From positions 8,494,001 to 8,558,000 of the forward strand of contig AP026546.1 of the NCBI GenBank assembly GCA_026075535.2: DNA of 64,000 bases, given 5' to 3'. How positions within the stretch are numbered: the stretch's first letter is position 1; every line of letters begins with the position of its first letter. Shown piece after piece: positions 1 to 57,356 of the stretch. A program made the position numbers and the translations under genes. The notes beneath the pieces are model-generated. The model was given only the letters and a program-made list of their open reading frames with translations, was not told the DNA's origin and did no database searches. Source of the stretch: Tricholoma matsutake (Eukaryota > Basidiomycota > Agaricomycetes > Agaricales > Tricholomataceae).

Positions 1-889
1 TCACGAGGTAAGTGTAATTATTGATTGGCCTGCACTCCAACTACATTACTGCATAATCACCGGGAGAGGCAGAAGCTGAACTCGTGATGTTAAATCAACC
101 TGGGATCATCGATGCTATCATTACTGATGATAGTGATGCATTTGTGTTCAGTGCAAAGTGTGTTATCAGATCCAGGTGCAAGGCCTTTTCTTCAGTACCA
201 GTGATGTCACAGTAGTGATTGTTTAATACCCACTGCTTTTAGTTCTACAAACAAGATCAGTAACAGCCTCGGTGCTGATGAAGTCATGATCTACACCTCG
301 GATGCCATCAAACATGTTGATACAGTTGCACTTACAACTGATGGCAGGTGGTGATTATAGCTTGGGAACTTCTGGCTATGGGGTATCAACAACACATGGC
401 TTGGCAAAATGCAGCTTTGGGGATGCATTGCTCACAGCTGCCAAGACTCTACCTGATGATGACTCCTTTCAGATGTTTCTTGGCACATGGTGAGCTCAGA
501 TGTGTCTTGAATTGTCTACAAATTCACACAGCTTCCTCCCTCATTGCTCCATGGCCCTGACCTTGAAGTTGAGGTCTTTACACTCCCCCCCATATTCCTA
601 TAGGAATCTGATGATTCCGATGATTCTGATCGGAGTCCAATCAGAATCCCACCATATTCCAATGTCATTTTCACCAGCCAAATTGACATGAAATGGCACA
701 TTTAATCCTAGTCCAGTACGATGTAGTCCGATCAGAGTCTGATTGGACTATCAGAATTTCCTAGGAATTTCTGATCATAGAAATCACATAGGACTAGTCC
801 GAAGTTATGCTAAGACATCAGACAATATAGGATTCTGATAGGAATGAAAGCAGCCTTGCTTAGTAATATAGTATGAAAAATTAAACACA

Positions 890-967
890 CACACAAGAAT
901 TGAACACTTGACTACAGAAGATTATGCAAGCGTAAACTGACAACAATACCATTAGGCTAAACAGTCA
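890..967 (-). ncRNA. tRNA-like Pol III unit, left arm of E1 (beta-type variant)
   Basis: On the minus strand an A-box-like TAGCCTAATGG (949-959) is followed about 45 nt later by a B-box-like GTTCAATTC (897-905) and then a TTTTT run at about 877. Direction is outward, toward the left terminus. No closed acceptor stem was found, so this is tRNA-derived or tRNA-like rather than a working tRNA gene. Confidence 0.55.
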
Positions 968-999
968 TTACAGGTAAGTGATCATACTACACTACATAC

Positions 1000-2290
1000 C
1001 ATTCCCATGGGTGTGATGACAAAGCACATAGCTGCATCATCACACCTGCCAGCTCATCAACTCCCACCACCACCACCAACGATGACAAGCATGCCACCTC
1101 CATCCCCCCACCTCAACCACCTCAACCCAGCAACTCCCACCACTCCCACTTCACCCCCATCTCTAGATGAGCCCCCAACACTGGAAATGACTGGTTTCGA
1201 TGCCAAACAATGCCCAAACAACACAATCGTTGTTTGGGCCATAGTAAGTTGTTTTTTTCATTTGTTTTTTACTTTTGTAGACTAACTAATTCATTTGTTT
1301 TGTTTCTAGATTCTAATCTACATGAGTAACGACAGACTGATGCAAGCCAAACCCACACCCAATGATGCCCCTGGCAATCCCCCTCCTCCCCATCAAAACA
1401 GGATGTGAGGGTATCGATCATGGTCAGGAGCATGGGGAGCAACACCAGGAGACCCCAAAAGGGGAATACCCGCCCGGTAAGCACCACCTGACCCCTCCCC
1501 TCGTGCCATGTCACTGATGAACCGACAACGCACCCACCCCATGCCTATGAGCTGCTGCTCATAGGGTGGATCGTGAGTGCATGGACCCCCCACGACACCA
1601 ATGACATCCAGCACCCCCCATCACCACTGTGAGCAACTGCTTGCGGGGTGTATATGGGGTGTGAGAACATGGGAACAGCGTGGAGGGACGATGATGGCAC
1701 CAAATGACACGCCTATGAGCAGCTGCCCATAGGGTGGTTTGTGGGTGCAGACAACAAGGGGGATGAATGACAAGGGTGACAAAATGACAAGGGGAAAGGG
1801 AACAACGACCAGAAGGGGAGACAATGGTGACACCCGCCCCATGCATGCCTACAAGCATCTGCTCGTAGGGTGTTTAAGGGGAGGGGGAGGGAGGGAGGGG
1901 ACAATGGACAAATGCTGCCACCAACATATGATGCACCACCCACCACCAGCCTCACGAGCAACTGCTTGTGGGGTGGACAGTGGGTGGAATGATGAGGGAG
2001 GGGAGACGAGAGGGAGGGGAGGGAAGCCACAGGGGAGGCGAGGTGAGGGAGGCGAGACACGATGGAGACAAGAGGGAGGGGAAACGATGGGACAGGGCTG
2101 ACAAGACAGGCAATGTGACGCACCACCCCCCCCTCCCCCCTGCAAAATGGGGGGGGTGGTTTTTTTTTTGTAGAATTTAAAATAGTATAATTAAATAGTA
2201 TAATTAATTCTCCCCCCCGCGTTTGCATGGGTTTTTTTAAAAAAAAATCTATATTATTTATCTACTCCCTCACGAAGACATGAGGGCTCA
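1000..2290 (+). other. Intron/hairpin cassette of E1
   Basis: Begins with a reading frame that opens MTKHIAASSHLPAHQ at 1016, a start shared with E2, E3 and E5. Next is a perfect 11-bp-arm palindrome GCCCAAACAAC..GTTGTTTGGGC (1212-1239) directly followed by a splice-donor-like AGTAAGTTG and a T-rich segment ending TTTCTAG at about 1309, a likely intron. The following part holds five copies of an imperfect hairpin with core AGCNNNTGCT and tail GGGTGGA (near 1546, 1624, 1711, 1846, 1951). The 3' end has C-rich hairpins each followed by T runs (2126-2290). Long antisense frames (1713-2228, for example) are purine/pyrimidine skew effects. Function unknown. Confidence 0.6.
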
Positions 2291-2346
2291 ATAAGTGAAG
2301 TAATCCTAAGTGCTATAAATGGACTTTATATTGCATGTTTATTAAT

Positions 2347-2433
2347 GCTCCTGTGGCTCAACTGGTTGAGCACTTGTTTTTGTGGTCATGTGGCTTATAT
2401 ATCCCAAGGTCTGGGGTTCAATCCCTGCTCTGC
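2347..2433 (+). ncRNA. tRNA-like Pol III unit, right arm of E1 (alpha type)
   Basis: A box TGGCTCAACTGG (2354-2365) followed by GTTGAGCA as in a tRNA D arm, B box GGTTCAATCCC (2415-2425), then TTTT at about 2441. Direction is outward to the right terminus. Nearly the same unit stands in E2 (left arm) and E5 (right arm). Confidence 0.65.
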
Positions 2434-3443
2434 CCATTTATTTTGTAAGCACTTTCACCAAAGTCAAGTCTTCCGAAATGGTGTGGTATTCTGACTACCT
2501 GTTGGAATTTCTTGGAAATAAGAGTACATGGTCATCAAGATACATTCCAATCGGATTCCTATCAGACTCCTAGGACTAGTATTGGACTAGTAGGACTCCT
2601 ATGGGATTCTGATCAGACTCCTATCGGAAAACTCGGACTCCTAGGACTCCGATAGGAATATGGGGGGGAGTGCAAAGTCTTGTCAAAGTTGACCACTGCC
2701 TTTCTGGATATGGAGGTTCTTGATCTGTATCTAGCAGCAACAACATCTTGGACCATAGGATTAGGCAGCCATGTGATGGATACTGTTGCCCCATTGTGGA
2801 GACCTCGCAAGCCTGTGATTCATGAAATCACCACATTTTGCCAGCAATGCTTGGGATGGTCCGAATCGGCAACACTTCTGAAGAGATTTGAAAAAGTGCT
2901 TTGGGGTGGGGTCATATGTCACATGCTTTGCTCAGTATGCTGGTTTCTCCATCTGATAAAAGCCAATTACTCACGATGTCCAATTGTTTGAGCTGTTTGT
3001 TCTTTATGATGACACTGAACACAAACTTGCCAACACACAAACATGTGTGTTGAAGATCTCTCCCAACCCTTGCACAGTCCAGTCAAGTGGCAGAGGCTCC
3101 CTCACATACCAGAAACTCACAGTTACCATCAAAAATCTCATCAAATCTACAGGTTGTGTTGTACTGCCACGAAATGATGCACTGGTGGTTTCAATCAATG
3201 TATGGGTCCTGCAATCCATGACATATGCTGTAGGACTCTTGACTTTGCAGGAGTGGCTGCATGCAGTAAGCAGATCCTGAGTCCCTTGTCATGACCATCA
3301 AGTACATATCTTCATTCCAGAAACCTCAGAATTCTATGCAAAAACTTGGTACAATTGATTTGACCTTGGATGATGTGACTACTAGTAGCAGAAGTGGTGC
3401 CACTCACAATGAGGTTATTGATTTGACATTGGAGGAGATTTGA

Positions 3444-4105: not shown

Positions 4106-4109
4106 CTGT

Positions 4110-5200: not shown

Positions 5201-5219
5201 ATCACAGATCTATCTGACA

Positions 5220-5830
5220 TGTCCAAACCATCAACTTCTAATCCCAGTCCAAATCCTGTTCCTACACCAGTGATAGAGACAAAGATTGAGGTGCTCACAG
5301 TGCAAACACTGCTAGTAGTGTCAGTGCTAGCAGCATCCCAGCCCAGGCAAGCAGAAGCACAGCCATGGCGAAGATGATGAGATAGAGGAGATGATGGAGT
5401 GGATTTCACAGGATGATGTGCAGACAGTGGAGAAGTCTCAAAATGGAAAGGCACACTTACCTAAGTATGCACTACCCTAAATCTTTGACAGTACCATGGA
5501 AAATACAAAATCCTTTATCAGTTCTATAATATTGTATATCTATGGGAGTCCAGAATGTTGCACAGCAGAGTCAAAAATTATGTTTGCTCTCTCTTACATC
5601 CAGAGGGAAAGCACAGTTTTGGAGAAATGAGGCTATTAATCAAATTTCTGGGGGAAACAAACCATTTGTGACCTTCAAGGAATTTTTGGAGAGATTGGAG
5701 GCTCAGTTTGGGGATCCTTGGAAGGATGCCAAGTTTGGCAGCCTACACTAGACTTAGGTTCACTAAAAGACAGGATCAAATTATCTTCATTGCATGGAAG
5801 TAGGAACCATAAGTTACTACAAATAAAAGA
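5220..5830 (+). pseudogene. Ty3/gypsy gag fragment
   Basis: The frame at 5542-5751 reads ALWRNE-like KAQFWRNEAINQISGG, then FVTFKEFLERLEAQFGDPWK. This resembles the capsid region of basidiomycete Ty3/gypsy gag (WRNE..I..G....TF.EF...F...FGDP). Upstream frames carry a Pro/Thr-rich lead (PVPTPVIET) typical before gag capsid. Downstream it continues after a TAG as FTKRQDQIIFIAWK until E2 begins at about 5888. No protease or RT of this element was found on the right of E2, so it is a truncated relic. Confidence 0.6.
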
Positions 5831-6049
5831 ATAGGAAGTTACTATACCTTTGTTGCATGGAAGTAGGAATGAAGGTTAAGGCTGAGATTTACACTGCCCC
5901 ACATAGTCCTGGAGGAATCCTGGTAGTCCTACCAGGAATCCAGTGAGATTCAGTACCCTAAAGTCATACCATAATGGAAAGTCAATTTACAAGTTTCAAG
6001 TGCTTTGGACTTCATGAATTTCACAAAGTACCTACAAAATAAACTTGTT

Positions 6050-6133
6050 CAGAGCAGGGATTGAACTCTAGAACTCATGATCAAGAATCACATGACAAAC
6101 CAAACAAGTGCTTAACCAGTTGAGCCACAGGAG
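6050..6133 (-). ncRNA. tRNA-like Pol III unit, left arm of E2 (alpha type)
   Basis: Minus strand: A box TGGCTCAACTGG (6116-6127), B box GTTCAATCCC (6057-6066), TTTT about 25 nt beyond. Outward facing. The stretch between the boxes is longer than in a standard tRNA, as if it held an intron. Confidence 0.65.
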
Positions 6134-6277
6134 AATTATTAGCTGCAATATAAAAGTGTATTTATACCCTCAAACTCAAACTTAGGTATTTCTCTCTTGA
6201 AGCTCACAATTAAGATCAAATAAAATTTATTAACTACATCCCTCACATATACACCATTAATTACATAAAAAAAAAAC

Positions 6278-6482
6278 CTCCCCAACACAAGGTGCGAGGG
6301 GGAGTCCTACAAATATATACATATAAAACTAATCTCCCCTCACATTCAATGCGAGGGGAGCACTACAATTATAAAGAAAAAGAAAGAAAAACCCCTCACC
6401 CATGTTTTATGTGGGTGAGGGGGAAGGTATTACCATAAATAAAAAATGAAAAAAACCACCCCATGCAAAATGCAGGGGCGGC
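6278..6482 (-). repeat. C-rich hairpin array of E2
   Basis: Four stem-loops in a row, read on the minus strand: 6456-6482, 6389-6423 (arms CCCCTCACCCA/TGGGTGAGGGG), 6336-6360 (CCCCTCRCATT type) and 6278-6303. Several are followed on that strand by T runs of 5-9 nt. The same order is found in E5. Confidence 0.65.
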
Positions 6483-6489
6483 CTGGTGA

Positions 6490-7955
6490 GTCATGCCTGT
6501 CATCCGGTCCCCATCATCCTTGGTGCCAGGCCTTTGTTGTTGCTGTCCTCATCATTGCCATCCTGGGCGTCATTTCTGTGCTGCTCCTGGTTGCCATGCC
6601 CTTCCTGGTTGTCGTTGCTGTCCTGGCCATCTCCTGCTGTGTGGTGGTGGCTGTCATCGTCATTCCACCCACAATCCACCCCATGAGCAGTGGCTCATGG
6701 GGCTGGAGGCAGGTGGTGTGTTGTTGGCCCTGTTGTTGTTGTTGGTTGTGGTTGTTGTTGGTTGTGGTTGTTGTTGGTTGTGGTTGTTGTTGGTTGTGGT
6801 TGTTGTTGGTTGTGGTTGTTGTTGGTTGTGGTTGTTGTTGGTTGTGGTTGTTGTTGGTTGTGGTTGTTGTTGGTTGTGGTTGTTGTTGGTCATGGTTGGC
6901 GGCCATGCTTTGCGTTCTTGGGGTTCTGGTGCTGGTAGGGGGTTCTGGTGCTGGTAGGCGGTGGCATTGTCATTGTCGTCGACTGCACACACTCACAATC
7001 CACCCTATGAGCAGAGGCTCACAGGCATGGGGTGGGTGTGTTGGGTTGTCTTGTGTCCGGCCATTGTTGCCAGTAGAGTAGAACCTATAAAACAAAAGAA
7101 ATGGCTTAGTTTATAAAAACAAAAAGCAAACAAAAAGAATTTACATAGGGCCCAAACGATGCCCATGTTGGCTCGTTTGCGGGTGGTGGTGTTGTTACCA
7201 GTAGATTATAATCTATAAAGCTAAAGAAACAGGTTAGTTAGTTTATAAAAACAAAAAGCAGATGAAAAAAAAAAACTTATGTAGGGCCCATCCAGTTGGC
7301 TTGTTTGTCATCATCCGTTGTGGTTGGCGGCCGTGCTTCACATTCTCGGGGTTCTGGTGCTGGTAGGTGGTGGCATCATCGTTGTTGTCGACTGCACACA
7401 CTCATGATCCACCCTACGAGCAGAGGCTTGCAGGTGTGGGGTGGGTGTGTTGGGTTGTCTCGTGTCCGGCCATTGTTACCAGTGGAGTAGAACCTATAAA
7501 ACAAAAGAAATGAGTTAGTTTATAAAAACAAAAAGCAAACAAAAAAAAAATTATGTAGGGCCCAAATAACGTGATCTGCATTGTTTGGGCCCATCTTCCA
7601 TCCAGTTGGCTCGTTTGCAGGTGGTGGCATCATTACCAGTAGATTATAACCTAGAAAACTAAAGAAACAGATTGGTTAGTTTATAAAAACAAAAAGCAAA
7701 TGAAAAAAAAAACTTATGTAGGGCCCAAATGATGCAGCAGGTTGCCTTGTTTGGGCCCACATTCCATCCAGTTGGCTCATTTGAAGGTGGTGGTGATGGT
7801 GGAGTGGGCATGGGAATGGTGGCAGTGGGTGTCCATGCAGTGGTGGTAGTGGTAGAATGGAGAGGCGGCGGCATTGTCAAGAGTGGTGGTGATGGTTGAT
7901 GAGCTGGCAGTGTTGATGATGTGGCTGTGTGCTTTGTCATGCACAGCTGCCCCAA
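6490..7955 (-). other. Intron/hairpin cassette of E2
   Basis: Minus-strand frame opens at about 7940 with MTKHTATSSTLPAHQPSPP, the shared cassette start. Palindromes GGGCCCAAAT..GTTTGGGCCC stand at 7721-7758 and 7558-7592, with a half copy at 7148-7158. On the minus strand these are followed by TACATAAGTTT and T-rich intron-like stretches ending TTTATAG before GTTCTACTCCACTGG or ATTATAATCTACTGG. Hairpins with core AGCNNNGGCT/TGCT lie near 6676, 6999 and 7408. Thus two to three intron-exon modules are tandemly repeated. No protein domain is recognised. Confidence 0.55.
6731..6890 (+). repeat. 16-bp microsatellite GGTTGTGGTTGTTGTT, about 9-10 units
   Basis: Nearly perfect head-to-tail repetition of GGTTGTGGTTGTTGTT inside the E2 cassette. 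It creates long artefactual frames in several phases on both strands (Cys/Leu/Val-rich on plus, Asn/Thr/Gln-rich on minus). Confidence 0.9.
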
Positions 7956-7990
7956 TGGTACCTAGAGCAGTTAGTGGACATACTTTGTAA

Positions 7991-8065
7991 GTCTATGTGG
8001 TGTAGTGGTTATATTGGCCATGCTGAAATGTTGTTGTCTAATGCCTAGGGTTCAATTCTGCCTCA
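7991..8065 (+). ncRNA. tRNA-like Pol III unit, right arm of E2 (beta type)
   Basis: A box TGGTGTAGTGG (7998-8008) followed by TTAT, B box GGTTCAATTC (8049-8058), then TTTT at about 8076. Outward facing. Almost identical to the beta unit in the left arm of E5. Confidence 0.65.
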
Positions 8066-8368
8066 TGTCATTTATTTTATTACTTAGTATTAAGGACTCC
8101 TGGTTCAATCTTCCTGGATTCCTGGTCTGTCCTCCTGAATTCCTCATAGTCCAAGTCCTGGGGAATTCCGGGAATGGTACCAGGAAGAGCCCAATTTACC
8201 AGGATTATACCAGGAATCCACCAGGAATCCTACTGGAAGAGAAACTGCCAGGAATAAACCATTTGGTGGACAATGGCTGAAGCAGGGACTACCAGGAATC
8301 CTGGAGGAATCCTGGTAGTCCTACCAGGAAGACCAGGATTCCTCCAGAAATATGTGGGGCAGTGTAAA

Positions 8369-8718
8369 GAGCTCCAGCCAGCATCAGCTGCAGCAAAAAG
8401 ACAAACTCCTTGTCTAAGTCATTGTTGTCCATTGAGAATGGCATCCACTAGATCGGAAGGAGATCCCCATCAATGCATCATCGATCAACTGTTATTGTCC
8501 TTCTAAATCTACTCTCCCTGCACTGTTAACTTATGGTCTGAAACTCCAGGTCCAAATATTTTCAAACGCCGCTCATTGATGGGTTTGGAACGAAGTCTAG
8601 GTTTTCAAATGCTACGGGAAGTCATCCAATGATCACTCTTATAATCAAACTTCACTAGAATCTGTTAGAGACACATTCAGGATGGCTTTAAATGATTCTC
8701 AATTAGCTGGCCTACTCT
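8369..8718 (+). other. Short host stretch between E2 and E3, unrecognised
   Basis: A plus-strand frame reads MASTRSEGDPHQCIIDQLLL and, in another phase, TSLESVRDTFRMALNDSQL near 8650-8700. These may be decayed coding sequence but no family is recognised. It does not continue either the gag left of E2 or the copia RT right of E3. Confidence 0.3.
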
Positions 8719-8892
8719 CAGTACTTTACAGTCCCCCACCTGTCCTAGTGGACTCCAACCAGACTGACTGGAGTCTGACTGGAGTCCAATTGGAGTCCAA
8801 CTGGAGTCCAATTGAGCTACACTAAGTCATGTAGAGTTCAATCCCCCATTGGAGTCCAGGTGGAGTCCAACTGGAGTCTAACTGGAGTCTGA

Positions 8893-10131
8893 TGATAGGT
8901 TGTCTCCTCGGCTCAAAGGCCAATTCACCATTTTGGCCACATTCTAATCACATTGGATAACTCACACGAGGTCCCAGAAGCAGTGCGACCACTCCCGACC
9001 AAGTCTACCAAGTGCAATATCACGTCGAACGTGGTCGAGCATCGTCAAATGCGATCAAATGCGATCAAACATCGTTGAACGTGATTGAACATCATTGAAC
9101 ATCATCAAACATCATCGCGAGCATCGTCAAATGCAATCAAACATCGTCGAACACGATTGAGCATCATCGAACATGATTGAGCATCATCAAACACGATCAA
9201 ACATTGTCGAGCATTGTCGAGCATCATTGATCGATATCGAGAGACTGCGAGCGACATTGGGTGCCACATTTGTTATCTATATGGTGGAATAACATGTGCC
9301 AGGAAGTATTCCAACTCGTGCTCAAACTTGCTGATAGTAGGTCAGCCTTGTTCCAAGTCCCTATCGTGCACAGAACCCGCTGGATGCATTATTGCGAGAC
9401 TTAGCACAGTTTATACACAAAGGACAGTCCCCTTTTAGTTCTATACCCTTTATTACTCTTTCATCATATGATATATATCTTTCTTGTTCAGATTCCAGTC
9501 TCCTTTTTGGCCTTGTGCCTTAACTCATATCTTTTGCCTCATGTTCTACACATGTTCTCTAGCCTTTTTAGGTACTTTCTTTATTTTATATAAAAAGATG
9601 TACCAGATACAAAGAAAAACAAGAAAGTCGTCATCTTCCTCCCAGATCACAGTGATTTGAGAGTACAGTTTAGTCTTATTCAGTCTGAAGTTTGGTGTTT
9701 TATGCTAAACTTTCTCGAAATTCCTCGAAATTCCTCACATTATGCTATTTTCGCTCTCGCTTCCCTCGATTAGCCTTTTTGTCACTTCTACTACTCGTCT
9801 AGTCCCCCGATCTTGCGTCCGAACATATCTGCGCACTCAAAATTCCTCGAAACCTCTTCGAAAAATATTGCGACATCTCAAAAAGCATTGCGACATCTCA
9901 AAAAGCATTGCGACATCTCGAAAATCATCGCAAAGTCTCGAAAATCATCGCAAAGTCTCGAAACACATTCTTTTAGCCTCGAACTGCTTCAACAAGCAGT
10001 TGTTTTATGACTATTTGACGGTCAGTCTGACAGGTGACATCTAGAGGGCCTCGCATCCTTCCTATGACTCGTGTTATACCATCCGAAGCCTTTTGTGGGT
10101 TTTGTTTGGGTTTCCGGGTTGAGCATCATCA
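8893..10131 (+). mobile_element. Solo gypsy-type LTR inside E3
   Basis: Starts TGATAGGTTG and ends TTGAGCATCATCA, with TG..CA ends. The last 50 nt (TGTGGGTTTTGTTTGGGTTT) match the end of the G1 LTR read from its minus strand (12824-12870). Inside are degenerate repeats of ATCGTCGAACATGATCGAAC (9000-9230), a TATA-like TTTATATAAAAAG (about 9585) and a 22-bp repeat ATTGCGACATCTCRAAAA (9860-9960). Flanking ctga/ccga may be a decayed 4-5 bp duplication. It is related to, but clearly diverged from, the G1 LTR. Confidence 0.6.
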
Positions 10132-10235
10132 CCGAGTGGAATGCATTTCAACCAAATGATAAGTCAATTAGATATGAGCTCAAAGGACTTCAGACTTGGT
10201 GAATTTCATAAGGTACCCACAAAATAAATTTGTGT

Positions 10236-10320
10236 ACTGCAGGAATTGAACTCAAGACCTCACCATAAGGAATCACATGACAAACCAAACAAGTGTGCTC
10301 AACCACTTGAGCCACAGGAG
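10236..10320 (-). ncRNA. tRNA-like Pol III unit, left arm of E3 (alpha type)
   Basis: Minus strand: A box TGGCTCAAGTGG (10303-10314), followed by TTGAGCACAC, B box GTTCAATTCC (10242-10251), TTTT near 10225. Outward facing. Confidence 0.62.
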
Positions 10321-10426
10321 ATCTATTAGGGATCAATATAAGGTTTATTTATGACTCAACTTTTCATATTCTTCAAGGAGGCATTTTTCAAACAATTACA
10401 ATCAGAAAATTTTAATTAACCACATC

Positions 10427-11690
10427 CCTCATGTAGGACACAAGGGAGTTACTATGTACATAAAAATCTAAACCCCTCGCATTCGGTGCAAGGGGGGGGG
10501 CAGAGATAAATTAAACATAATAAAGACCCCTCCCCATGCAAAATGCAGGGGAGGGGGGGTTGGGGGATGCGGTCTGGGGTGGGTGTCATTGCCCACCCCT
10601 CCTTGCATGCATCTATCGCTGTAGCAAGCTGCACCCATCATCCACCCTACTAGCAGAGGCTCATAGGCATGGGGATGGGTGCCATGGTCATCATAACCCT
10701 GGTGTACCCACCATCCACCCGACGAGCAGGTGCTCATCGGTGTGGGGTGGGTGTGTTGTTGGTTTTGTGGGTCTCCTAGTTCAGAGGGGTTGGGGGGAGG
10801 GGTCAGTGATGTGGGATGTGAGGGAGGGGGTAGGTGGGTGCTTACCAGGTGGGTATCCTGCTCCACAGGTCTCCCAGTACTGCTCTGCTGTCTCCTATCC
10901 TTTATTGACACCCTCACATCCTGTTTGGACAGGGAGGAGGGGGCTGGCATGGGTGTCATCAAGTCTGGGTCATTCTGGGTCCTGGTGCTGGTAGGCGGCG
11001 TCATCATCATCATCATCAACTGCACACACTCATGATCCACCCTACAAGCAGGGGCTTGTAGGCGTGGGGTGGGTGTGTTTGGCTCGTTTGTGGGTGGTGG
11101 TGTCATTACTAGTAGATTATAACCTAGAAAACTAAGAAAATGAGTTAGTTAGTTTATAAAAACAAAAACCAAATGAAAAAAACTTATGTAGGGCCCAAAC
11201 GATGCGATCTGCATTGTTTGGGCCCGGGTTGGCTCGTTTGTGGGTGGTGGTGTCATTACTAGTAGATTATAACCTAGAAAACTAAAAAAAAACAAGTTAG
11301 TTTATAAAAACAAAAAGCCAAACAAAAAAACTTATGTAGGGCCCAAACGATGTGATCTGCATCGTTTGGGCCCACATTGGCTCATTTGCAAGTGGTGGCA
11401 TTGTTGCCAGTAGATTATAACCTAGAAAGCTAAAAAAACAGGTTAGTTAGTTTATAAAAAGAAAAAGCAAACAAAAAAAAAACTTATGTAGGGCCTGCGT
11501 TCCATCCATTGGGCTCGTTTGCAGGTGGTGGTGATGGCAGATTGAGCATGGGAGCAGTGGTGGTGGGTCTCCACACAGTGGTGGTGCTAGAGAGAGGAGG
11601 GAGGCAGTGTCGATGGTGGTGGTGGTGGTGGTGAGTGATGAGCTGGCACATTTGATGACACAGCTATATGCTTTGTCATACACAGCTGCA
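10427..11690 (-). other. Intron/hairpin cassette of E3
   Basis: Minus-strand start MTKHIAVSSNVPAHH at about 11680. Palindromes GGGCCCAAAC..GTTTGGGCCC at 11339-11373 and 11191-11225, each followed on minus by TACATAAG, a T-rich run and an acceptor-like CTAG before GTTATAATCTACT. AGC..GCT hairpins with CCACCC flanks at about 10646, 10716 and 11038. The distal end is a C-rich hairpin array (10427-10557). Minus-strand reading frames of about 90-210 aa are Pro/His/Thr-rich low-complexity without a domain. Confidence 0.55.
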
Positions 11691-11727
11691 CCATGGTACC
11701 TAACACAAGTAGATGATACCTTACACA

Positions 11728-11810
11728 AGGTATTGTGGTGTAACAGTTATATTGTGTATTATTATTACATAAGCAACATATGGGGATCTGGGTTCGATTC
11801 CTTTTCTTAC
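11728..11810 (+). ncRNA. tRNA-like Pol III unit, right arm of E3 (beta type)
   Basis: A box TGGTGTAACAG (11736-11746), B box GGTTCGATTCC (11791-11801, the canonical sequence), TTTT directly after at 11802. Outward facing. Confidence 0.65.
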
Positions 11811-12074
11811 ACACTTTTTCAGTGGAATCTGACTGGACTCCCAGTGGACTCCAACCAGACTCCAACCAGAATCCAACCAGAATCCAACTGGACTCCACTG
11901 GACCAGTCCCAGTGGAATCCAGTGTTTCAGTGGATTCCACTTGGAGTCCAGTCAGACTGGACTGGGACTGGACTGGCAACTTTTCAGGCAGTTGGCTGGT
12001 GACCAGTCCCAGTGGACTCCAGTCAGAGTCCAGTCAGAGTCCACTAGGAAAAGGTGGGGGAGTGTAAAGACCTC

Positions 12075-12823
12075 ATGAGAGTCTTGTAAAACCCCAAGAA
12101 ATCATCTGTGCATTCAGTGTTTGATTCCAGATGTGTCCACTCTGTTTCATACCATAAAGTCCTCACTGTAACTCCCATACCCAATCTTCTTTCCCAACTT
12201 CTACAAAACCAGTTGGTTGTTCCATATACTGAATCTCATCAGCTGGTAAGAGTCCATAGAAAAATGCAGTTTTGATATCAATTTGCTGTGCATCCCAGCC
12301 AAGTGAGGCAACAATGTGCAGGAGAATCTGCCAAGATTCCATGCGTGCAGTAGGTGAGGTAGTTTTTGTGTAATCTTTGCCATAAATCTGTTCAAACCCT
12401 TTGAAAACAAGGCATACCTTCCAACACACTGGAGTGCCATCCTCATTTCATTTGATGTGGAAGACTGGGTGACCCTTATGTATGCGGCACCCCTGTGGTA
12501 CGTTGGCTCTTGGAACTAATTTGTAGACTTGCATGTCTTTTAGGGACTTGAGTTCCTTGTGATAGCCTTCCTCCCAGCACTCAGAATCTGCCAGGTTCTG
12601 GGCTTCCTCCCTGGTATGTGGGTCATCTTCAAATTGTAGTGATCTGGCATCTATATCAGACATCTCTGAGATCAATGTGTGTAATTGATGTGCCTGATCA
12701 CCAAGTGTAGGGTCTTCGATCAATTGCTGATCGGCTTGATCATGATTGACAGGTGTAGGCATGATGACATCATGGAGCCCTTCCAAAACTTGCCTCCATT
12801 CCATATGTTGCTCCTTTATACAC
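12075..12823 (-). pseudogene. Copia element C1, reverse transcriptase part
   Basis: Ty1/copia RT on the minus strand: SECWEEGYHKELKSLKDM, KLVPRANVPQG, then FKGFEQIYGKDYTKTTSPTA and LGWDAQQIDIKTAFFYGLL, the usual order of copia RT motifs including the first catalytic-region D (IDIKTAF). It continues, after a TGA at about 12161, as GLYGMKQSGHIWNQTLNAQ and is cut at 12074 by E3 before the YVDD box. The 5' portion of the same element is at 24698-27882, on the other side of G1. Frameshifted and truncated, so inactive. Confidence 0.85.
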
Positions 12824-13930
12824 TGATGATACTCGACGAGGAAACCCAAACAAAACCCACAATAAGGTCTCAAATGGTATAATGCTAGTTAGACAAAGGT
12901 TGCAAGGTGGTATCAAATATCACCGCTGTTACCCAAGGCTATGAAAATGACTCTAGGGGGTGTCCAATGAGGTTTGATGAGGTTTGAGAGTATTTGAAGC
13001 ACTATGAAGGTGCTTGAGAGAAGTTTGATAAAGATCGAGAGTGTACAAAGTGCTGCAATGGCATTTGAGGGAAGTTCAATGAAGTTCAGGAGTGTACAAA
13101 GTGTTGCGATGAAGTTTGAAGAAAGTTTGAAGAGGTGCAATGATGTTCAAAGAAGTTCAAAGGGCTTTATAGAAGATGAGGACAGTTTCGACAATGGCTG
13201 AGAATAGACTATAGGGATGTAGAAAGATCAAGAGGGGATAGACAATATGAAATAGTTTCAAGAAGCTAGTATGAGGAGTTTGAGGAAATCTGGCGTAAAA
13301 CACTGAATTTTGAGACTAAGTCAAGATGCTTGGACTCAAAAGAATGGCTCTTAAATCAGACAATTGGTGTGAGAGGATGATCTATTCTGTCCTTCTAAGT
13401 AGCTAGTACAAGGCTATATATGTTGGGAGAAGTGATACTGAAAAGGAAATAAAACATGAGGAATACATGAGGCAAGATATAAAACAATAGAGAATCTTTG
13501 TGAATCATAGAATAAATGAAAGAAGATGAGAAGGGAAACATATAGAGTCATGATTTATCATGGGTACCAGTCCCCGTTGATCCAATATATCATCATGATG
13601 TCAAAGCGCCACAATCGCATCCTAAAATCCCATCGTTGTGTCTCCTCATGTCCAGTGGTGCTTGATATGTGACGCACTAATTCTTACAAGGTGTGCTGCT
13701 TGTATCTGAAGGGTGGTGCAATAGGTATACAGTGGCCAAAGACATTCAAAATGCTGCTAAGTTGTTTGAACTTGTTTGAGATCATTCGAAGTCATTTCAA
13801 ATCATTTGAAATTGATCAAAGTAGTTTCAGAGCGGTCTCACAGGGTTCATAGTGGTTGGGAGCATGCATGTTGATGTGTGAATACCTCTGGAGACATTCC
13901 CAGAGCTTAGTGAGCATGGTGGACCTATCA
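12824..13930 (-). mobile_element. G1 gypsy 3' LTR (full length)
   Basis: Positions 13231-13930 are repeated with about 90% identity at 23987-24697. Read on plus it starts TGATGATACTCG and ends GGACCTATCA (TG..CA ends). Immediately beyond lies CCTCCCCCTTACT (13933-13945), on minus a purine-rich tract AGTAAGGGGGAGG, as expected 5' of a 3' LTR. Internal short repeats AAAGTTGTTCAAAGTT-like and a TATATATAG. The first 400 bp have no counterpart in the other LTR, which was cut short by internal deletion. Outer flanks ataca (12818) and atgca (24698) may be a decayed 5-bp duplication. Confidence 0.8.
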
Positions 13931-14457
13931 TCCTCCCCCTTACTGAAATCCTGACTGTCCCAGTCAGCCGATTGGAGTCATGTGCAAAATGAGTGATCGT
14001 GTTGAAGCTGTAAACAAAACTTGAAAAACTTCTCATTCTCCTTCATCAACCTACACCCTCGATACTAGCTTTTCATTATGTCTCTCCTCGTCAAACTCAA
14101 TACTGACATCTTTGACTATGCCAAATTGCAGTACTTTACAGTCCCCCACCTGTCCTAGTGGACTCCGACCGGACTGACTGGAGTCTGAGTGGAGTCAAGT
14201 TGAACTACATTAAGTCAAGTAGAGTTCATCCCCCCACTGGAGTCCACTGGGAGTCCAACTGGAGTCTACTGGGAGTCCAACTGGAGTCCAACCAGAGTCC
14301 ACTTGGAGTTCAACTGGAGTCCAACCAGATGAACATGTTCAATGCTACTTAAGCAATTCACAAGTCATTATCCTGTTATGACTCCAGTCCACTCGGATTG
14401 AACAGGGACTCAGAACTTATCACTCAAGCTTGCATCTGAAAATATAAAATACTTGTA

Positions 14458-14535
14458 TTTTCAGGACTTGAACCCTCAACCTCTGCTTAAATAAGCAGAT
14501 TTCGGAGTGCTCTAACCACCTGAGCCATGTGCCTG
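14458..14535 (-). ncRNA. tRNA-like Pol III unit, left arm of E4 (alpha type)
   Basis: Minus strand: TGGCTCAGGTGGTTAGAGCA at 14508-14527, a textbook D-arm sequence with A box; B box GGTTCAAGTCC at 14464-14474; TTTT near 14445. A 12-nt inverted repeat CTGCTTATTTAAGCAG stands where an anticodon arm or intron would be. No matching acceptor stem seen. Confidence 0.68.
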
Positions 14536-14666
14536 ACATATTTTTACCATATTAGGGTCATGAGATACAATTTACAAAGTTTATATTTGCTCTACATAGT
14601 CCAATCGGACTCCAACTGGACTCCAAGTGGAATTCAACCACAAGACCATAATATTACTATCAGAAA

Positions 14667-17600
14667 CTACCTACATGTCATCATCATCACCATCACCATC
14701 GCTATCACCATTATTAGTCAAGTTACTGGCTTTTCTTGTTTGTTTGTTAATAACATGCCCAGTGTGATAAAATAGCATGGTATGCAAGAACCAATTGAAG
14801 TTGCCTGGGGTCATCCTTTTAAGAATTGATTCATATCCCCCTAGCCATGCATTCAATTGCTCACATGCCTGTGATATATTTATTATACTGTATCAATCAT
14901 GACTGAAGTTAGTGAATGCTTACCTGAGTATTAAATGCACGCTTGTAATGCTGTCTCCCTTGTTCATCCTCTTCAACAATAATGAGATTAGGGGCTGAGC
15001 CATTCATAGGAGCAGGATTACACCACTGTCAGCACAAAAAGTCTGATGCATGATGATTGATATAATGGTAGGCATCAACTATGAATTGAGTTGTTTTCTT
15101 CCAAATAGACTCCCAAGACCCATTGGCAATACTAGTATGAAGCACAAGACATGCTTTGTCTATGCAGATATATGCTGGTCAGGATTCTTCTGTAGGATAT
15201 ACCTTTTCCAGAAATGCCAAAATATTTGTTGGTGACTCTGATTTGGCAAACTTTGCCCATGCAATAACCACACCACATGGAGCACATATAGTTTCCACAC
15301 AATAGAATCTTGGGGCAGTGAAATAATTGGTCCTTTGTGGCGTTGGGGCAGGTTCATCATGTGGTTGTACATTCTCAGTAATTGGAGCTGTCCAAGGCAT
15401 ATTTTCATTTGGTCGCCGCAATATTCTCCAGATGCCAGAAAAGGTGTGTCGGTTGTGTTTTTCAGTGTGTTTCTTCCATTGTTCCTGATGCTGTGGGCAT
15501 GCTTGAGTCATAACAACTTTCTGATTGGTACAGCCACAGATTCTGCATTTAGCCCCATATTCAGATTCATGTAATGCACAAAATGCTCCTCCACGAGAAT
15601 TGGCAAGTTGAGATGTGCAATCTTCATATGCACAATGCTAGAAAGCTATTAGCTTTAGTTATATGTAACAGTCAAAATACATACATTAGGCCCCATAACA
15701 ATCCCATCCATCACCACAAGTTTGACAGGTGAATAATCAATATCCATATTGTCACCATCTTGGGGGCTCTCTAGATTGCCTGTAGTATTTTGTTCTTGTC
15801 CTTCATTTTCAAGGGTTCTATCACCTTCATATGCAGGCACAGGTGTATTTTCATCCACTCCAACTATTGCTGCTAGATCACCTCCTGCAATTACATCATA
15901 AGTGCCCTTGTACTGGTGAGTACATTCTGAGCATGAATGTTGATCTGCAGCCCGTATCATTCCACCTTCTCCTAATATTTCAAATGCCTCTTTTGTGACT
16001 TCATCGATTGCAAGACCATCTTGGAGCACAAGATTAATGCCTGATGCAGAGGCAACTGTACGAATTGATTCTTGGACATATGTATGCCAAGTCTGATGCT
16101 GAGACAGGTTCCTGATAGGTTTTCCCTGAAAGCATTATTCCAAAATTCTGTAATGGCTGCAGCTGAAGCATGAAAGCTATACATAGCAGACAGAACAATG
16201 TTGGAAAACAGCCTATCCACCCAGATATTCTGTCCAGCTTTAATGTACTTGGCAGAACTCAGATATAGTCTGTCAAATTGACCTTGTTCACCAGAAACTG
16301 GTGTACATTCATGATCTGCATGATAAGCAGTTTAACAATCTGGACATTTCCCAGTCAATACTGGAACATCTTCATAATATCCAAAGCCTTTGATTAAGGT
16401 CACCAATGGAATATCTCATGATTTAGTGATTTGCAGCAGTGACCGGGGTTGACAGTTCAAAGTTTTGCATTCGTATGAGTTAGGACATATATAACATGGA
16501 TTGGACCAATAGATTTGTGTGAAACTGCCTTGAGCTTCTGCTGAAATTGACCATTGTCATTATAAGGATTTAAATCCAACAGCTTGGCCAGCGCATCAAG
16601 TTTAGTTCCAATATTGTTGATTCTTGTCTTTGTTTCAGTGACATTGTCTGATTTCTTGAGTAACCTGATGTCTTGTTGCTTGTACAATTTATTGTCCATT
16701 GCACGAGCAAGGCATTTCATCCAACTAGAAATGGTGACACATTTTTCTCCTGTGCATTTTGGATTTTGTTGCCTTGAATGTAAATTCAACAAGTCTGTGT
16801 TATCTGTCATAGTGAACAGAATAACAAGAACTGTTGAAAGTGAAATTTTGGAACTGAAATTATCCTGAATAAATTGGCTGAACAGTTTGAAGGGGATTTC
16901 TGGGAATGGGCTTTCCTCAGGTAGAGCAGTGACAGTTGGTAGGATATTGAAGATAATTGATATCCATAATAAAAGTTGCAGCTGGTTCAGATTTAAAACA
17001 ATCTTCCAGATTAAAACTTGAAGGAATTCCAGAGGATGAATTTGCCACATGCTATAAGGCAGCAAGCTCAAAAAACTATTGCAATTGCATGGGCTCTAAC
17101 TATTTACTTACTTTGAACCCTTCTTCTTCTTGTCACCTTTCTTCTTGGACCCACTACCACTACCAGCACTACTTTCATCCTTCGACTTCATCTTTCCTTT
17201 GCTCTTGCCCCCTGATTTACCCACTTCTTTGGCTTTGCCATCCAAAAAAGCAAAAAGATCCTTGAAATTGTATGCAACCTTCTCATAGCCCCAAAGCTCA
17301 ATATTGGAAGGAGCATCTTTCCTCCTCTCCAACCAGCTCACCATCTCAGGATAGTCAGATACTCAGGAGAAAGCTTTGGAATGGTTGGCATGCCACATGG
17401 ATTTAGACTGAAAAATTTCAATCAAATCAGTGACTGAAGGCTTCCTTCCTTCCCATTCTCTGGAGGCACAGAGTGCAGCCAAAGTTGCATTGGCCTCTAA
17501 GAATGCTTTATACTTTTGATAGCCAATGTGAAGACCACCATCAGTATGATCAGCCAAATTTGATGGAATATTGAGACGAGTTATAAGATCATTCTTGAAG

Positions 17601-18271: not shown

Positions 18272-18455
18272 AGGTACATCTAATATGGGTTGGAAATAGA
18301 AAACAAGATCCAGATAATGTTACCTTGGTCAATTCCTGGGAGTGAAAAGTCCATATCTAATAAGAATGGGCTTTAAAAAAGCAAACCATTCAAAGATAAA
18401 ATTGTTACCTTTGCTTCCAATACTATCCTTGGTTCCTTCATGTACATGAAGATCT

Positions 18456-20041: not shown

Positions 20042-20086
20042 AAACTGGGTGATAGTGATAGTGTTATGTATTCAAGCATCAATAAA

Positions 20087-23985: not shown

Positions 23986-23986
23986 T

Positions 23987-39912: not shown

Positions 39913-39917
39913 ATACT

Positions 39918-42519: not shown

Positions 42520-42521
42520 TA

Positions 42522-44114
42522 CAGTGGCCAACAAAACCGTTCCCATGTTTTCAAACTTTTAATAAGTGTACTTGAATAAAATGAAATAAATTGTCATAAA
42601 ATCTGAGAAAATTATGGAATATACCTTAACATCCTATCTGATCACCTGCATAGCCACAAGATCATGTGACACTATTTAATAGGTAAGTTTCATCATATAG
42701 TCTAGTCACTCATTGGAACAGTTTTGTTGCACTGATTTTTGAGTATAGAATTTATGCAAATCACATGACTTTGTTGATTATTACAGGCATAAGTAAACAA
42801 TATCATGTGATACAATATATTTAAGGAGACTGGATCTCTTGCAACTTATTCTTACCCCCCAATTCATTATGCAGAAGCTATCATCCACTCAAATACTCCA
42901 CATTCTCAATTTGCTTGATTCTGGTCTTTCTGTCTGACAAATCTCTTATCAAACTGGTCATGGCATTGCTACCATCAGCCGTACTTGCTCTGAGCACTGA
43001 CCTGAGCTTCAGAAATCATTTGGTGGTTGTCCTATGAAGCTTACTACTGCTAATGTTGACTATGCACATTGAATTATTTGCATGGGAAAGGTTGATAATG
43101 CTACTGAAGCTGCACAAACACTTCAGGATATCACCAACACCCCTTTCTCCTCCCAAACCCTTCATCGACATCTTAAATCACATGGCATGAAACCTGTAGT
43201 CAAGAAGAAACATCCACTACTCAAACCTCATCACCGATGCGCACAATTGGAGTTTGCTGAGCAGCATGCAGAGTGGACACTTGAGGATTGGAAAAGGGTC
43301 ATATGGTCAGATAAGACTAAAATTAACCATTTGGGATCAGATGGAAGAAGATATGTGTGGAAAGATAGTGATGAAGGTCTGAGTGATAGGCTTGTTGAGG
43401 GAACAGTGAAGTTTGGAGGAGGGAATTTGATGTTGTGGGGGTGCATGGGATGGGATGGGGTTAAATATGCTACTAGGATTGAAGGAAAGATGGATGCTGA
43501 ACTTTATGTCAGCATTATGGATGATGAGCCTCAGCAAACACTGGAGCTTTGGGGTAAAACTACTGATGATATGGTATTTCAGCAGGACAATGACCCCAAA
43601 CATACCAGCAAAAAGGCCAAAAAGTGGTTTGAAGACAATAATATTACTGTCCTCAAGTGGCCTGCACAGTCTCCTGACCTCAATCCTATAGAACATCTGT
43701 GGCATCATCTCAAAAAGAAGCTTGGAGAGTATGAGGAACCAGCCAACAGTGTTACAGAGCTTTGGGAGAGGGTACAGGTGGAATGGGAGAAGATACCAAA
43801 GGAGGAGTGTCAGAAATTGATTGAAAGCATGCCTAAAAGACTTGCTGCAGTAGTTAAAACAAAAGGTGGCTATACCAAGTACTAATTTATACTCAAAAAA
43901 TCAGTGCAACAAAACTGTTCCAATGAGTCACTAGAGTATATGATGAAGTTTACTTATTAAATAATGTCACATGATTTTGTGGCTATGCAGGTGATCAGAT
44001 AGGATGTTAAGGTATATTCCATAATTTTCTCAGATTTTATGACAATTTATTTCATTTTATTCAAGTACACTTATTAAAAGTTTGAAAACATTGGAACAGT
44101 TTTGTTGGCCACTG
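42522..44114 (+). mobile_element. Tc1/mariner transposon in G2
   Basis: Flanked by TA on both sides (42520-42521, 44115-44116). Long inverted repeats of about 225-230 bp start CAGTGGCCAACAAAACYGTT. Length 1593 bp. Excision would rejoin the G2 frame STQMY-MAREV. Encodes a DD34E transposase. Confidence 0.95.
42869..43888 (+). pseudogene. Tc1-family DD34E transposase, three TGA stops
   Basis: Cut-and-paste transposase. The frame from ATG 42869 to TAA about 43886 gives some 338 codons, the usual size. N-terminal helix-turn-helix region 42890-43075, catalytic VIWSDKTKINHLGSDGRR (first D), MVFQQDNDPKHTSKKAKKWF (second D) and WPAQSPDLNPIEHLWHHLKK (E, 34 residues later). In-frame TGA at 42935, 42998 and 43070, all in the N-terminal DNA-binding part and all where Arg is plausible; from 43082 the frame is open for 267 codons. 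This copy could not make full-length protein without read-through, yet the catalytic half is intact, so it decayed recently. Confidence 0.93.
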
Positions 44115-44115
44115 T

Positions 44116-45180
44116 ACATGGCAAGAGAAGTCATCCAAGAGGATGGGGATGGAGAGGAAGACCTCTCTGAGGAGAAAGAAGAAGAGGAGGACCTTCCTGG
44201 AAAGGGCGAAGACAAAGAAGATGAACCTTATGAGGGTTCACAGTATAGCTCTGAGGGAGAGGAATTCGAATTCAATGACCTTGATCTCCAAGAAGAGAGC
44301 AATGATGATGATAGAAGGGGAGTGCACATGTATGCGCTCCAAATGGAATTAGACAAGGAGAACCTCATCGATAGGGATAGTTGGGAGTTTGAGGAGATGA
44401 ATGACTTTTCATCAGAGGAAGAGGACTTTCCTCTATTGGTAGAAGAATCAGATAGTGACAAAGACATCACATTTGATGATGATATAGATGAAGAAGAAGG
44501 ATGGGGAGATAATTATGAAGAGTCATCAGAGTTTTCTGACTCTGACAAACATGATGAAGTCATCTATGAACCAAAGGTGCTGATTGCAGCCTTAAAAACA
44601 GGGGAGGAATTACCCCCACCAAAGGTAAAGAAGATAGTAGACAAAAGACCATCAACTAAGATAAGGAAGTACTGGACAGACCAGTACAGCTGAAGGATGA
44701 AGCAAAAAGCTTCATCATAATGGTGAACCTGAATGGGCAAGCAGCAGTAATGCTGCTGGACTCGGGGTGTACCATGGATGTGGTATCATCAGAGTTAGTA
44801 CACATTGCAGACCTAAAGGTCTATGAATTGACTGAACAAGTTCCAGTGCAGTTGTGGACAAGGGGAAGTCAAGCAAAAATAAAATTATGGCACAAAAGCA
44901 TGTATAAAATATGGGCACATAGATGTGAAACACTATTTTGATATAGTGAACATTGATAGATATGATGTAATCTTAGGAATGGTGTTTATGAGAAAGCATG
45001 GTATCATGCTAGATTTTGATATGAATGAAATCAGACATAAGAAAGAAGTGCTCCTGGCATTATGGGAGAGCCCAGATGCATACCTATTGGGATGCAGGCA
45101 AGCCATGAGGTTTTGGGAAGATGGACAGGGGATAAAAGAACCTGTCAAGAAGGTGGGGATGCTGAAAGTCACCAACAAAT
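44116..45180 (+). pseudogene. G2 acidic linker and protease
   Basis: Continues the gag frame as MAREVIQEDGDGEEDLSEEK, a strongly acidic 190-residue stretch. After a stop at 44691 the retropepsin begins: MVNLNGQAAVMLLDSGCTMD (active-site DSG at about 44760), then on a frameshift IVNIDRYDVILGMVFMRKHG (44945-45005), the protease flap end common to basidiomycete Ty3 elements. Frameshift near 44925. Confidence 0.82.
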
Positions 45181-47935: not shown

Positions 47936-47949
47936 CAAATTATGTACTA

Positions 47950-54900: not shown

Positions 54901-55128
54901 CAAATACAACAACAACAACCAGTGACATGCATCCTGGCAACAGCACCATACATCCTTATTACCCTTCTATCCACATCCAGCAGTGCCAACATTATCCTAT
55001 TGATGTGGTACCTTCCTATTTTGTGACTACACCCAATGCAGCCTTCCAAAATCACACACTATGTTTGATGCAGCCTTTTACTTACATGGTCGATCTTTTT
55101 CTTACATTTTTATTCCTTAACTGAGCTC
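54901..55128. other. Left flank of E5, unassigned
   Basis: Contains CAACAACAACAACC and Thr/Gln-rich frames; nothing recognised. Confidence 0.35.
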
Positions 55129-55512
55129 TTTACACTGCCCCACATATTCCTGGTTATCCCTGCCACAGCTATTGTTCACCAAATGTTGCATTCCTGGCTG
55201 TTTTTCCTCCAGTGGTATTCCTGGTTCAGTCCTGGTATATTCCTGGTAAATCAGGCTCTTCCTGGTACTATTCCAGGAATTCCCCAGGACTTGGACTCTC
55301 AGGAATCTGGGGGGACTGACCAGGAATCCTGTAGGACTCTATAAGAGTAACCAGGACTCTGTAGGACTCATCAGGACTCACCAGGACTCATCAGGACTCA
55401 TCAGGACTCACAAGGACTCACAAGGACTCACAAGGACTCACAAGGCACAAGGAATCCAGTAGGATTGAACCAGGAGTCCTTACTACTACTACTAAGTACT
55501 AAAATAAATGAC

Positions 55513-55590
55513 ATGAGCTGAAATTGAACCCTAGGCATGAGACAACAACATTTTAGCATAGCCAATATAACCACTACACCACATAGACTT
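55513..55590 (-). ncRNA. tRNA-like Pol III unit, left arm of E5 (beta type)
   Basis: Minus strand: A box TGGTGTAGTGG (55571-55581), B box GGTTCAATTTC (55520-55530), TTTT near 55503. Outward facing. Confidence 0.62.
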
Positions 55591-55634
55591 ATGAGGTATC
55601 TCCACTTACTGCTCTAGGTACCATTGGGGCAGCT

Positions 55635-56790
55635 GTGCATGACAAAGCACACAGCAACATATCAACATTGCCAGCTCATCATCCACCATCATAACCACTC
55701 TCGACAATGATGCCACCTCTCTTCCACTGCCTCCCCTCTGTCAACACCTGTCGCCACTGCTCCTATGGCCACCACCACCTTGTCTAATGCTGCCAATGGC
55801 CGCATTTGAACCACCTCAGGCCCAAACAATGACAGATGTTGTTTGGGGCCCAGGTAATGTTTTTTACTTTTTTTTTATTGAACTAACTAATATTTTCTTT
55901 GCTTCTTTAGGTTCTAACTATATCATGACAACAAGATGACACCAAACGACTAACGAAGAACAACAAATGACAAATGACAAATGATGAATGAAGAAACAGA
56001 GAACGACGATGCAGAGAGGGAAGGCCATAAGGAAATGGGCCCAAACGACATACATCGTCATTTGGGCTCCAGGTAAGTTTTTTTTTGTTTGTTTCATTCT
56101 TTTTTGATTAATATTAGTTCTCTTTTGACTTTTTATAGTTTCTCATTGTATGATGTGACCCATCACTGCCACCGCACCTTCCACCGCCATGAGCAGCTGC
56201 TCGCGGGGTGGAAATGGGGAGTGATGATGAGGACCAAGGAGATGGAGATGAGGAGCTGCAAATGATGAGAGCAGCGGGGTGGCAAGGCCCAAAACGACGA
56301 GAGCAGCAGGGTGGCAAGACAAGGATGGGAGGACAACAGACGACCACAAAAACAATGGGACAGGGAGGACAACGGATGACAAGCACGACCCAGCACCCAG
56401 CACCGCTGCTGCAAGCAACTGCTCACAGGGTGGAAGGAGGGGTGCGAGGACAGAGATGACCATGCAACAATGACAGGACACCAGCACCAGGGAATGCAAC
56501 ACGGCCAGGACAGTGACAGCAAAGCCAGGACAACAAACGGGTGCAAGGATGGAGACAACCATGCAACGACAACAGGACACCAGCACCAGGGAACACAACA
56601 GCGGGAGACAGCCAGGATGGCAATGATGACCAGGAAGGGCATGACCAGGAGCACTATGGAAATGATGCCCCCAGGAAGGGCATGACCAGGAGCAGCATGG
56701 AAATGATGCCCAGGACAGCAACAATGAGGACAGCAACAACGAAGGCCCAGCACCCAGGACAACAGGGACAAGATGACAGGCATGACTCAC
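55635..56790 (+). other. Intron/hairpin cassette of E5
   Basis: Shared start ATGACAAAGCACACAGCAAC at 55640. Two palindrome-plus-donor modules: 55819-55851 then CAGGTAATG, intron to CTTTAG (55909); and 56037-56070 then CAGGTAAGT, intron to TTATAG (56140). AGC..GCT hairpins with GGGTGGA at 56188-56214 and 56414-56438. This is the cleanest copy of the module. Downstream frames are His/Pro/Gln-rich without domain. Confidence 0.6.
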
Positions 56791-56796
56791 CAGGCC

Positions 56797-56984
56797 ACCC
56801 CCACATTTTGCATGGGGCAGTTTTTTTCATTTTTTATTTATGGTAATACCTTCCCCCTCACCCGCGTTTTATGTGGGTGAGGGGTTTTTATGTATATATT
56901 TGTAGGACTCCCCCTCGCACCTTGCATGGGGGAGGTTTTTTTTTTATGTAATTAATGGTGTATCCCTCGTGTTGGATGCGAGGG
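56797..56984 (+). repeat. C-rich hairpin array of E5
   Basis: Four stem-loops: 56797-56817 (then T7), 56853-56884 (CCCCTCACCCGC..GTGGGTGAGGGG, then T5), 56910-56935 (CCCCTCGCACCTTGCATGGGG, then T10), 56963-56984 (CCCTCGTGTTGGATGCGAGGG). Same order as E2. Confidence 0.7.
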
Positions 56985-57089
56985 ATGTAGTTAATAAATT
57001 TTATTTGATCTTAATTGTGAGCTTCAAGAGAGAAATAGCTAAGTTTGAGTTTGAGGGTATAAATACACTTTTACATTGCAGCTAATAAT

Positions 57090-57175
57090 TCTCTTGTGGC
57101 TCAACTTGTTAAGCACTTGTTTGGTTTGTCATGTGATTCTTGATCATGAGTTCTAGAGTTCAATCCCTGCTCTGA
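57090..57175 (+). ncRNA. tRNA-like Pol III unit, right arm of E5 (alpha type)
   Basis: A box TGGCTCAACTTG (57097-57108), B box AGTTCAATCCC (57157-57167), TTTT at about 57184. Outward facing. Confidence 0.6.
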
Positions 57176-57356
57176 ACAAGTTTATTTTGTAGGTACTTTG
57201 TGAAATTCATGAAGTCTGAACTCATAAGATATCTCAAATTGATTTTCCATTATGGTATGACTTTAGGGTACTGAGTCCCACTATATTCCTGGTGAGTCCC
57301 ACTGGATTCCTCCAGGACTCTGTGGGGGAGTGTAAAGTTCAGTCTGCAAGTGGGCT

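Follow-up and report, generated by a model that had tools for sequence, protein, structure and literature searches.

When mobile elements carry promoters for RNA polymerase III (Pol III), the usual explanation is that these supply template RNA. We analysed a 64,000-nucleotide stretch of Tricholoma matsutake DNA (contig AP026546.1, positions 8,494,001 to 8,558,000 of the forward strand; hereafter the window) containing five DNA transposons, E1 to E5, which carry A-box/B-box units of the tRNA-gene kind in their arms. Among the closest described systems, Helenus (TRIMp3) elements are long terminal repeat (LTR) retrotransposons in miniature that have tRNA-like Pol III promoters and also occur in fungi, according to the available part of their description (PMC10886601). 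They resemble E1–E5 in being mobile and in having a tRNA-derived part whose conservation centres on boxes A and B, with no support for a role as tRNA, but they are retrotransposed, with a promoter in the LTRs that probably makes template RNA, whereas E1–E5 are class II elements whose predicted transcripts would end before the termini. The MER6 miniature inverted-repeat transposable element with an inserted V-SINE (PMC6887750), a DNA transposon holding sequence derived from a short interspersed nuclear element (SINE), is an analogue that, in the portion available, differs from E1–E5 in having one internal SINE relic and no outward promoter in an arm. Yeast tRNA genes (tDNAs) acting as barriers or insulators (PMC2040200 and PMC7990762, both available in part) are likewise A/B-box units that may act in ways other than transcription, but they are host tRNA genes and not transposon parts. 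The Kyakuja-Dileera-Zisupton (KDZ) elements of fungi make 8-bp target duplications, as does the E1–E5 group, with 4–8 bp given for two Cryptococcus KDZ elements in the accessible sections (PMC12730594, PMC12810828); the terms 'tRNA' and 'Pol III' are absent from the main texts of both papers. A paired or outward Pol III layout is not mentioned in the available portions of the repeat papers on T. matsutake and T. bakamatsutake (PMC10211490, PMC10627285), a paper on the transposon load of T. matsutake (PMC6980582) does not mention SINE, KDZ, DNA transposon, Zisupton or tRNA, and open-access titles and abstract openings on Pol III promoters in DNA transposons yielded no description of an outward layout.

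Each of the five elements contains two units, one per arm and each directed to the nearer terminus, and all ten units claimed in a preliminary description of this DNA could be located. One arm holds a unit of a type termed alpha, the other a unit of a type termed beta. In the non-autonomous E1 (571–2682, minus strand) the beta unit lies on the left (897–959, minus; A box TAGCCTAATGG, B box TGTTCAATTC, T5 16 nt on) and the alpha unit on the right (2354–2424, plus; A box TGGCTCAACTGG, B box GGTTCAATCC, T4 16 nt on). Of the beta A-box types described earlier, that of E1 had to be corrected to the TAGCCTAATGG type. The non-autonomous E2 (5882–8374, plus; termini compared by eye) has alpha on the left (6058–6127, minus, from the A/B scan) and beta on the right (7998–8058, plus; TGGTGTAGTGG and GGTTCAATTC), while E5 (55123–57342, minus), a non-autonomous element of the E2 family, has beta on the left (55521–55581, minus; TGGTGTAGTGG and GGTTCAATTT) and, on the right, the weakest of the ten units, an alpha (57097–57166, plus; A box TGGCTCAACTTG, B box AGTTCAATCC). 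E3 (8719–12074, plus) is also non-autonomous, with an alpha unit at 10243–10314 (minus, from the A/B scan) and a beta unit at 11736–11800 (plus; TGGTGTAACAG and GGTTCGATTC). E4 (14129–20295, minus) is coding, its open frames in pieces and its minus-strand gene starting beside beta; its alpha unit lies at 14465–14527 (minus; TGGCTCAGGTGG and GGTTCAAGTC) and its beta unit, which is covered by 21 genomic matches, at 20095–20155 (plus; TGGTCTAGTGG and GGTTCAATCC). An abundant dispersed repeat with 10-bp tandem motifs breaks the alpha arm of E3 over ~1.26 kb (~8875–10132); this repeat had 1,630 first-look candidates, 40 of them scored.

The A-to-B distance in the ten units is 51–62 nt, and a run of four or more T (T4+) begins 14–18 nt after the B box in all of them, in agreement with the T run reported earlier; counting the first T run only, it falls at 14–17 nt in nine units and sits directly at the B box in the beta unit of E3. 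The chance of a T4 run 13–20 nt from a random arm position is P = 0.034 (18 arm stretches). The hallmarks of a tRNA-type (type 2) Pol III promoter, an A box and a B box at tRNA-like spacing with a T4 terminator, are all present. Scanning the whole window for this combination at ≤1 mismatch returned nine of the ten units and no other match, the alpha unit of E5 having 2 mismatches. At the same threshold there was no match in 640 kb of first-order Markov-resampled DNA, and 146,091 bases of real background gave 0 matches at ≤1 mismatch, 1 at 2 and 5 at 3. In the first scan the window gave 8 units, each within one of E1–E5, where Markov-resampled DNA gave 0.1 per 64 kb; the positive control of that scan recovered a unit at 30/30 RF00005 loci, although 25 of these are one tRNA type, so that the control is narrow. 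The presence of ten outward A-box/B-box units with terminators in E1–E5 is confirmed and exceeds chance; chance capture was considered and rejected. Functional tRNA genes were rejected as well, because no tRNA model matched: ARAGORN reported no tRNA gene, Rfam gave nothing at the gathering score, and RF00005 at E ≤ 5 had no match over 5800–20400 (14.6 kb, six units). By the measure of these models, the tRNA structure of the units is not kept.

The layout recurs in the T. matsutake genome (161,040,721 bases in 13 contigs). Among the top 20 other genomic matches of E1, 19 have both ends (L031 is without the right end) and represent 17 distinct insertions, L023, L024 and L037 having a common flank. 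Copies without conserved A/B boxes, which the preliminary description had set against its own interpretation, did not appear in this sample: both units are present in all 19 full-length copies at nearly constant positions. The distance from beta unit to terminus is identical in 18/19, the beta A-box 13-mer in 19/19 and the B-box 11-mer in 18/19; the alpha A-box 14-mer is identical in 19/19 and the alpha B box is variable. Across the genome, a pattern of the 26-base alpha leader plus A box has 633 + 594 = 1,227 matches (control 0) and a beta A-box pattern has 349 + 347 (control 18 + 20). Over C1:1–10.67 Mb, the region covered by the pairing analysis, an alpha hit lies ≤4 kb from 32 of the 60 beta hits, with 4.3 expected. 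These pairs comprise 29 outward, 1 inward and 2 on the same strand, and those ≤2.1 kb apart are outward in 28/28, which is not the random orientation that had been named beforehand as a refutation. A separate 2.0-kb element, L079, has the same two-unit plan and its own target-site duplication, CAGTAATT, read from the flanks. In the E4 family the nearest CxC6 hit is divergent from the beta arm in 20/21 cases (25 of 150 CxC6 hits used, 21 beta arms); for the remaining arm the gene lies at a distance of 12.6 kb, as would fit a nested copy in between. The fixed orientation of the units is largely common descent and does not, therefore, amount to many independent pieces of evidence.

The boxes are better conserved than the sequence around them. 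Alpha units of five families have an identity of 0.92 in the A box and 0.83 in the B box against 0.32–0.48 in the surroundings; the beta rows of this comparison were unused, the E1 unit being out of register. In beta units of nine families the pairwise identity is 0.73 (A) and 0.84 (B) against 0.41–0.44 around them, and none of 100,000 permutations was as high, while inter-box spacers are hardly alignable between families. Within families, 21 of 121 columns are variable in the boxes and 316 of 1,164 elsewhere (Cochran-Mantel-Haenszel p 0.001 over five alignments; p 0.0008 without two conserved upstream stretches of E1). For the E2 beta arm 40 matches were scored, 20 of which, picked for divergence, were aligned. 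Box-specific conservation is strong between families and modest within them.

All five elements have terminal inverted repeats, with a TTTACA[CG]T[CG]CCCC-like motif at both ends. The ends of E1 (GAGGTC-TTTACAC ... GTGCAAA-GTCTTG) and its flanking repeats were established from the 19 full-length copies: the 8-bp repeats are perfect in 14/19 and agree at ≥7/8 positions in 17/19, and permuted pairs agree at 8/8 in 1/342. E4 has the 8-bp target-site duplication CCAAATTG on both sides (14121–14128 and 20296–20303); by eye, no clean duplication was seen at the window copies of E1, E2, E3 and E5. Direct repeats of ~700 bp in three pieces (84–93%) also flank E4 (13231–13930 and 23987–24697, 10.76 kb apart), probably belonging to an LTR element that received the E4 insertion. 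The alpha-side flank of E2, GGTTAAGG (5874–5881), and the complement of the beta-side flank of E5, AGTTAAGG (55115–55122), agree at 7/8 bases by eye, as if recombination between E2 and E5 had inverted the intervening stretch; the second flank pair does not match by eye.

On its minus strand E4 encodes the CxC6 (PF18721; 15182–15637, Pfam E 7.4e-11) and CxC5 (PF18718; 15975–16331, E 2.5e-13) domains, and the related copy L107 has both (1.3e-27 and 5.4e-13) in a 686-aa open frame running off the fetched stretch. Pfam terms these domains KDZ-associated, which likens the group to KDZ elements; unlike those, it has no detected KDZ core (PF18758) in the ten E4 pieces, in the L107 frame or among the precomputed domains of the 120 of 652 homologs listed, and we therefore call it KDZ-type rather than KDZ proper. 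A divergent core is possible. Species named among these 120 are T. matsutake, Infundibulicybe gibba, Flammula alnicola, Amanita rubescens and Galerina marginata, and no relatives were found in viral contigs. Ten KDZ-core loci (L009–L018) have no unit within their flanks, which may stop short of the terminus. In window scans, neither an element end nor a unit at ≤1 mismatch turned up around a second CxC6-type open reading frame of the window (31045–31827, 1.5e-19). As far as sequence features can define them, E1–E5 are members of a large KDZ-type group of class II DNA transposons, whose ends and duplications suggest cut-and-paste movement.

We propose, with confidence and doubt in about equal measure, that the arms contain TFIIIC/Pol III-binding units kept by selection. 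The units would be type-2 Pol III promoters carried inside transposon arms, their boxes binding TFIIIC/TFIIIB and Pol III and directing short transcripts of roughly 85–110 nt that end before the subterminal repeats. Since the spacers are free to change and a class II element needs no RNA intermediate, the selected effect would most likely be the bound complex and not the RNA; this complex may keep the termini and the beta-side gene start accessible (nucleosome-free) or bounded against silencing. A parallel exists in fission yeast, where tDNAs are heterochromatin barriers through TFIIIC and Pol III, and where the barrier works in either orientation (PMC2040200, as far as its available text goes).

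Several observations weigh against this proposal, the first being that such an orientation-independent barrier would leave the fixed direction of the units unexplained; the likeliest reasons for that direction are descent, the terminators or the start of the adjacent gene. The single within-family tests are weak (one-sided p 0.02 for E4 beta, then 0.07, 0.15, 0.20 and 0.26), and in one autonomous family (64% identity) the C of the B-box GTTC is gone from 7/13 beta arms. The between-family test is biased because the extra units came from A/B scanning. A TATA-like motif 37–40 nt upstream of the A box accompanies most non-autonomous alpha units, and beta units are without it. Lastly, alpha and beta in opposite arms had been claimed as a constant feature, which holds for E1–E5 and the 19 E1 copies and fails in three autonomous families that have beta only, so that a universal two-unit plan is rejected. 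The alpha unit is present at the alpha termini of the E4 lineage (E4, L083, L084) and at 0/5 of those recognised in autonomous elements outside it, namely L085 and L092 (64% identity to the E4 piece), L086 and L080 (60–61%) and L089 (57%); neither alpha nor the pairing is thus needed to spread. Beta termini recognised beside CxC6 genes have an outward unit in 6/6 (L093–L098; L097 with one B-box substitution), and both ends come from one copy in L085/L093, L086/L095, L089/L094 and L092/L097. Sampling of alpha termini set aside four of ten loci without a recognisable terminus (L087, L088, L090, L091), and of ten loci sampled for beta termini L097 and L098 alone were counted, the other eight lacking one; among the uncounted, L102 and L106 have weak end-like matches with no unit nearby and L105 has a 2-mismatch unit with no terminus in view. 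In another set of ten loci, eight had no unit at ≤2 mismatches or convincing terminus, and weak end-like matches in L072–L075 and L078 were not counted.

Beta is the wider and probably the older trait, with alpha found in the E4 lineage and the non-autonomous families. Core and alpha-arm stretches are common to E1, E2, E3, E5 and L079. The ends of E2 and E5, compared by eye, resemble those of the autonomous L089/L094, which is without alpha, while E4 has mainly its termini in common with E3 and L079; because of this, termini outside the units seem to have been exchanged between families.

There is another explanation, which we consider doubtful: beta may be part of a divergent promoter of the transposase-type gene, with TFIIIB between unit and gene start aiding Pol II initiation and alpha secondary and dispensable. 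Beta does lie on the gene-start side (a 153-aa reading frame of E4, its coding unproven, starts at 20041, with the beta A box ~50 nt away at 20095), E4-family arms are divergent from the nearest CxC6 hit in 20/21 and beta occurs without alpha in the three other autonomous families; yet in E1, E2, E3, E5 and L079, where no transposase gene is recognised, beta is retained and alpha is present too. It is unlikely that the units are inert relics of tRNA genes or SINEs captured once and carried by descent. Descent would explain their orientation and position, the weak single-family tests and the decayed B box in 7/13 copies of one family fit decay, and MER6 is a precedent, in the accessible part of its description, for SINE capture by a DNA transposon (PMC6887750), but the boxes stay near a degenerate consensus though the spacers diverged, the terminator is kept and the pooled within-family p is 0.001. 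That selection acts on the short Pol III RNAs themselves, which might for instance serve the element as trans-acting or decoy RNAs, strikes us as distinctly improbable: the outward direction and the T4 run at tRNA-gene distance in 10/10 units would suit such RNAs, whereas spacers hardly alignable between families imply that RNA sequence is not kept, and no tRNA family matches. Independent SINE insertions into several transposons are scarcely credible, for although the A/B boxes look like the tRNA heads of SINEs, the E1 beta-to-terminus distance is the same in 18/19 copies, T4 14–18 nt after the B box leaves no space for a SINE body, the close pairs are outward in 28/28, and insertions with their own target duplications, a refutation named in advance, were looked for and not found, with no systematic search for duplications around single units; SINE identity was rejected for units so terminated and so fixed within the arms.

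Two further repeats were recorded. At 42517–44119, 224-bp inverted repeats (96%) enclose a 267-aa reading frame that we take to resemble a Tc1/mariner transposase. Outside the window, a dispersed ~230-bp repeat (TGTTGG...TTTAACA; match ~1361–1592) at 21 loci (L046–L048, L050, L054–L070) has 5-bp target repeats at several copies and a tRNA-like gene inside (56.3–59.1 bits to RF00005), and looks like a solo LTR of the Helenus (TRIMp3) type; 'Tricholoma' is absent from the main text of PMC10886601.

In a class II element, outward Pol III units that are conserved call for a function other than template production, such as a chromatin boundary, end accessibility or promoter support, and the barrier biology of fungal tDNAs makes such a function directly testable. 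Tentatively, and expecting it to fail somewhat sooner than to hold, we suggest that a class II clade uses the host Pol III machinery as a built-in part, with TFIIIC/Pol III complexes, bound at one terminus or at both, marking the ends and promoter and keeping them open without an RNA intermediate. The E1–E5 group may account for part of the 'unclassified' repeats given as 25.4% of the matsutake genome in the available portion of PMC10211490. If the suggestion is true, these elements would parallel SINEs and TRIMp3 within class II, and the arrangement may extend to those genera of Agaricales in which CxC5/CxC6 relatives occur.

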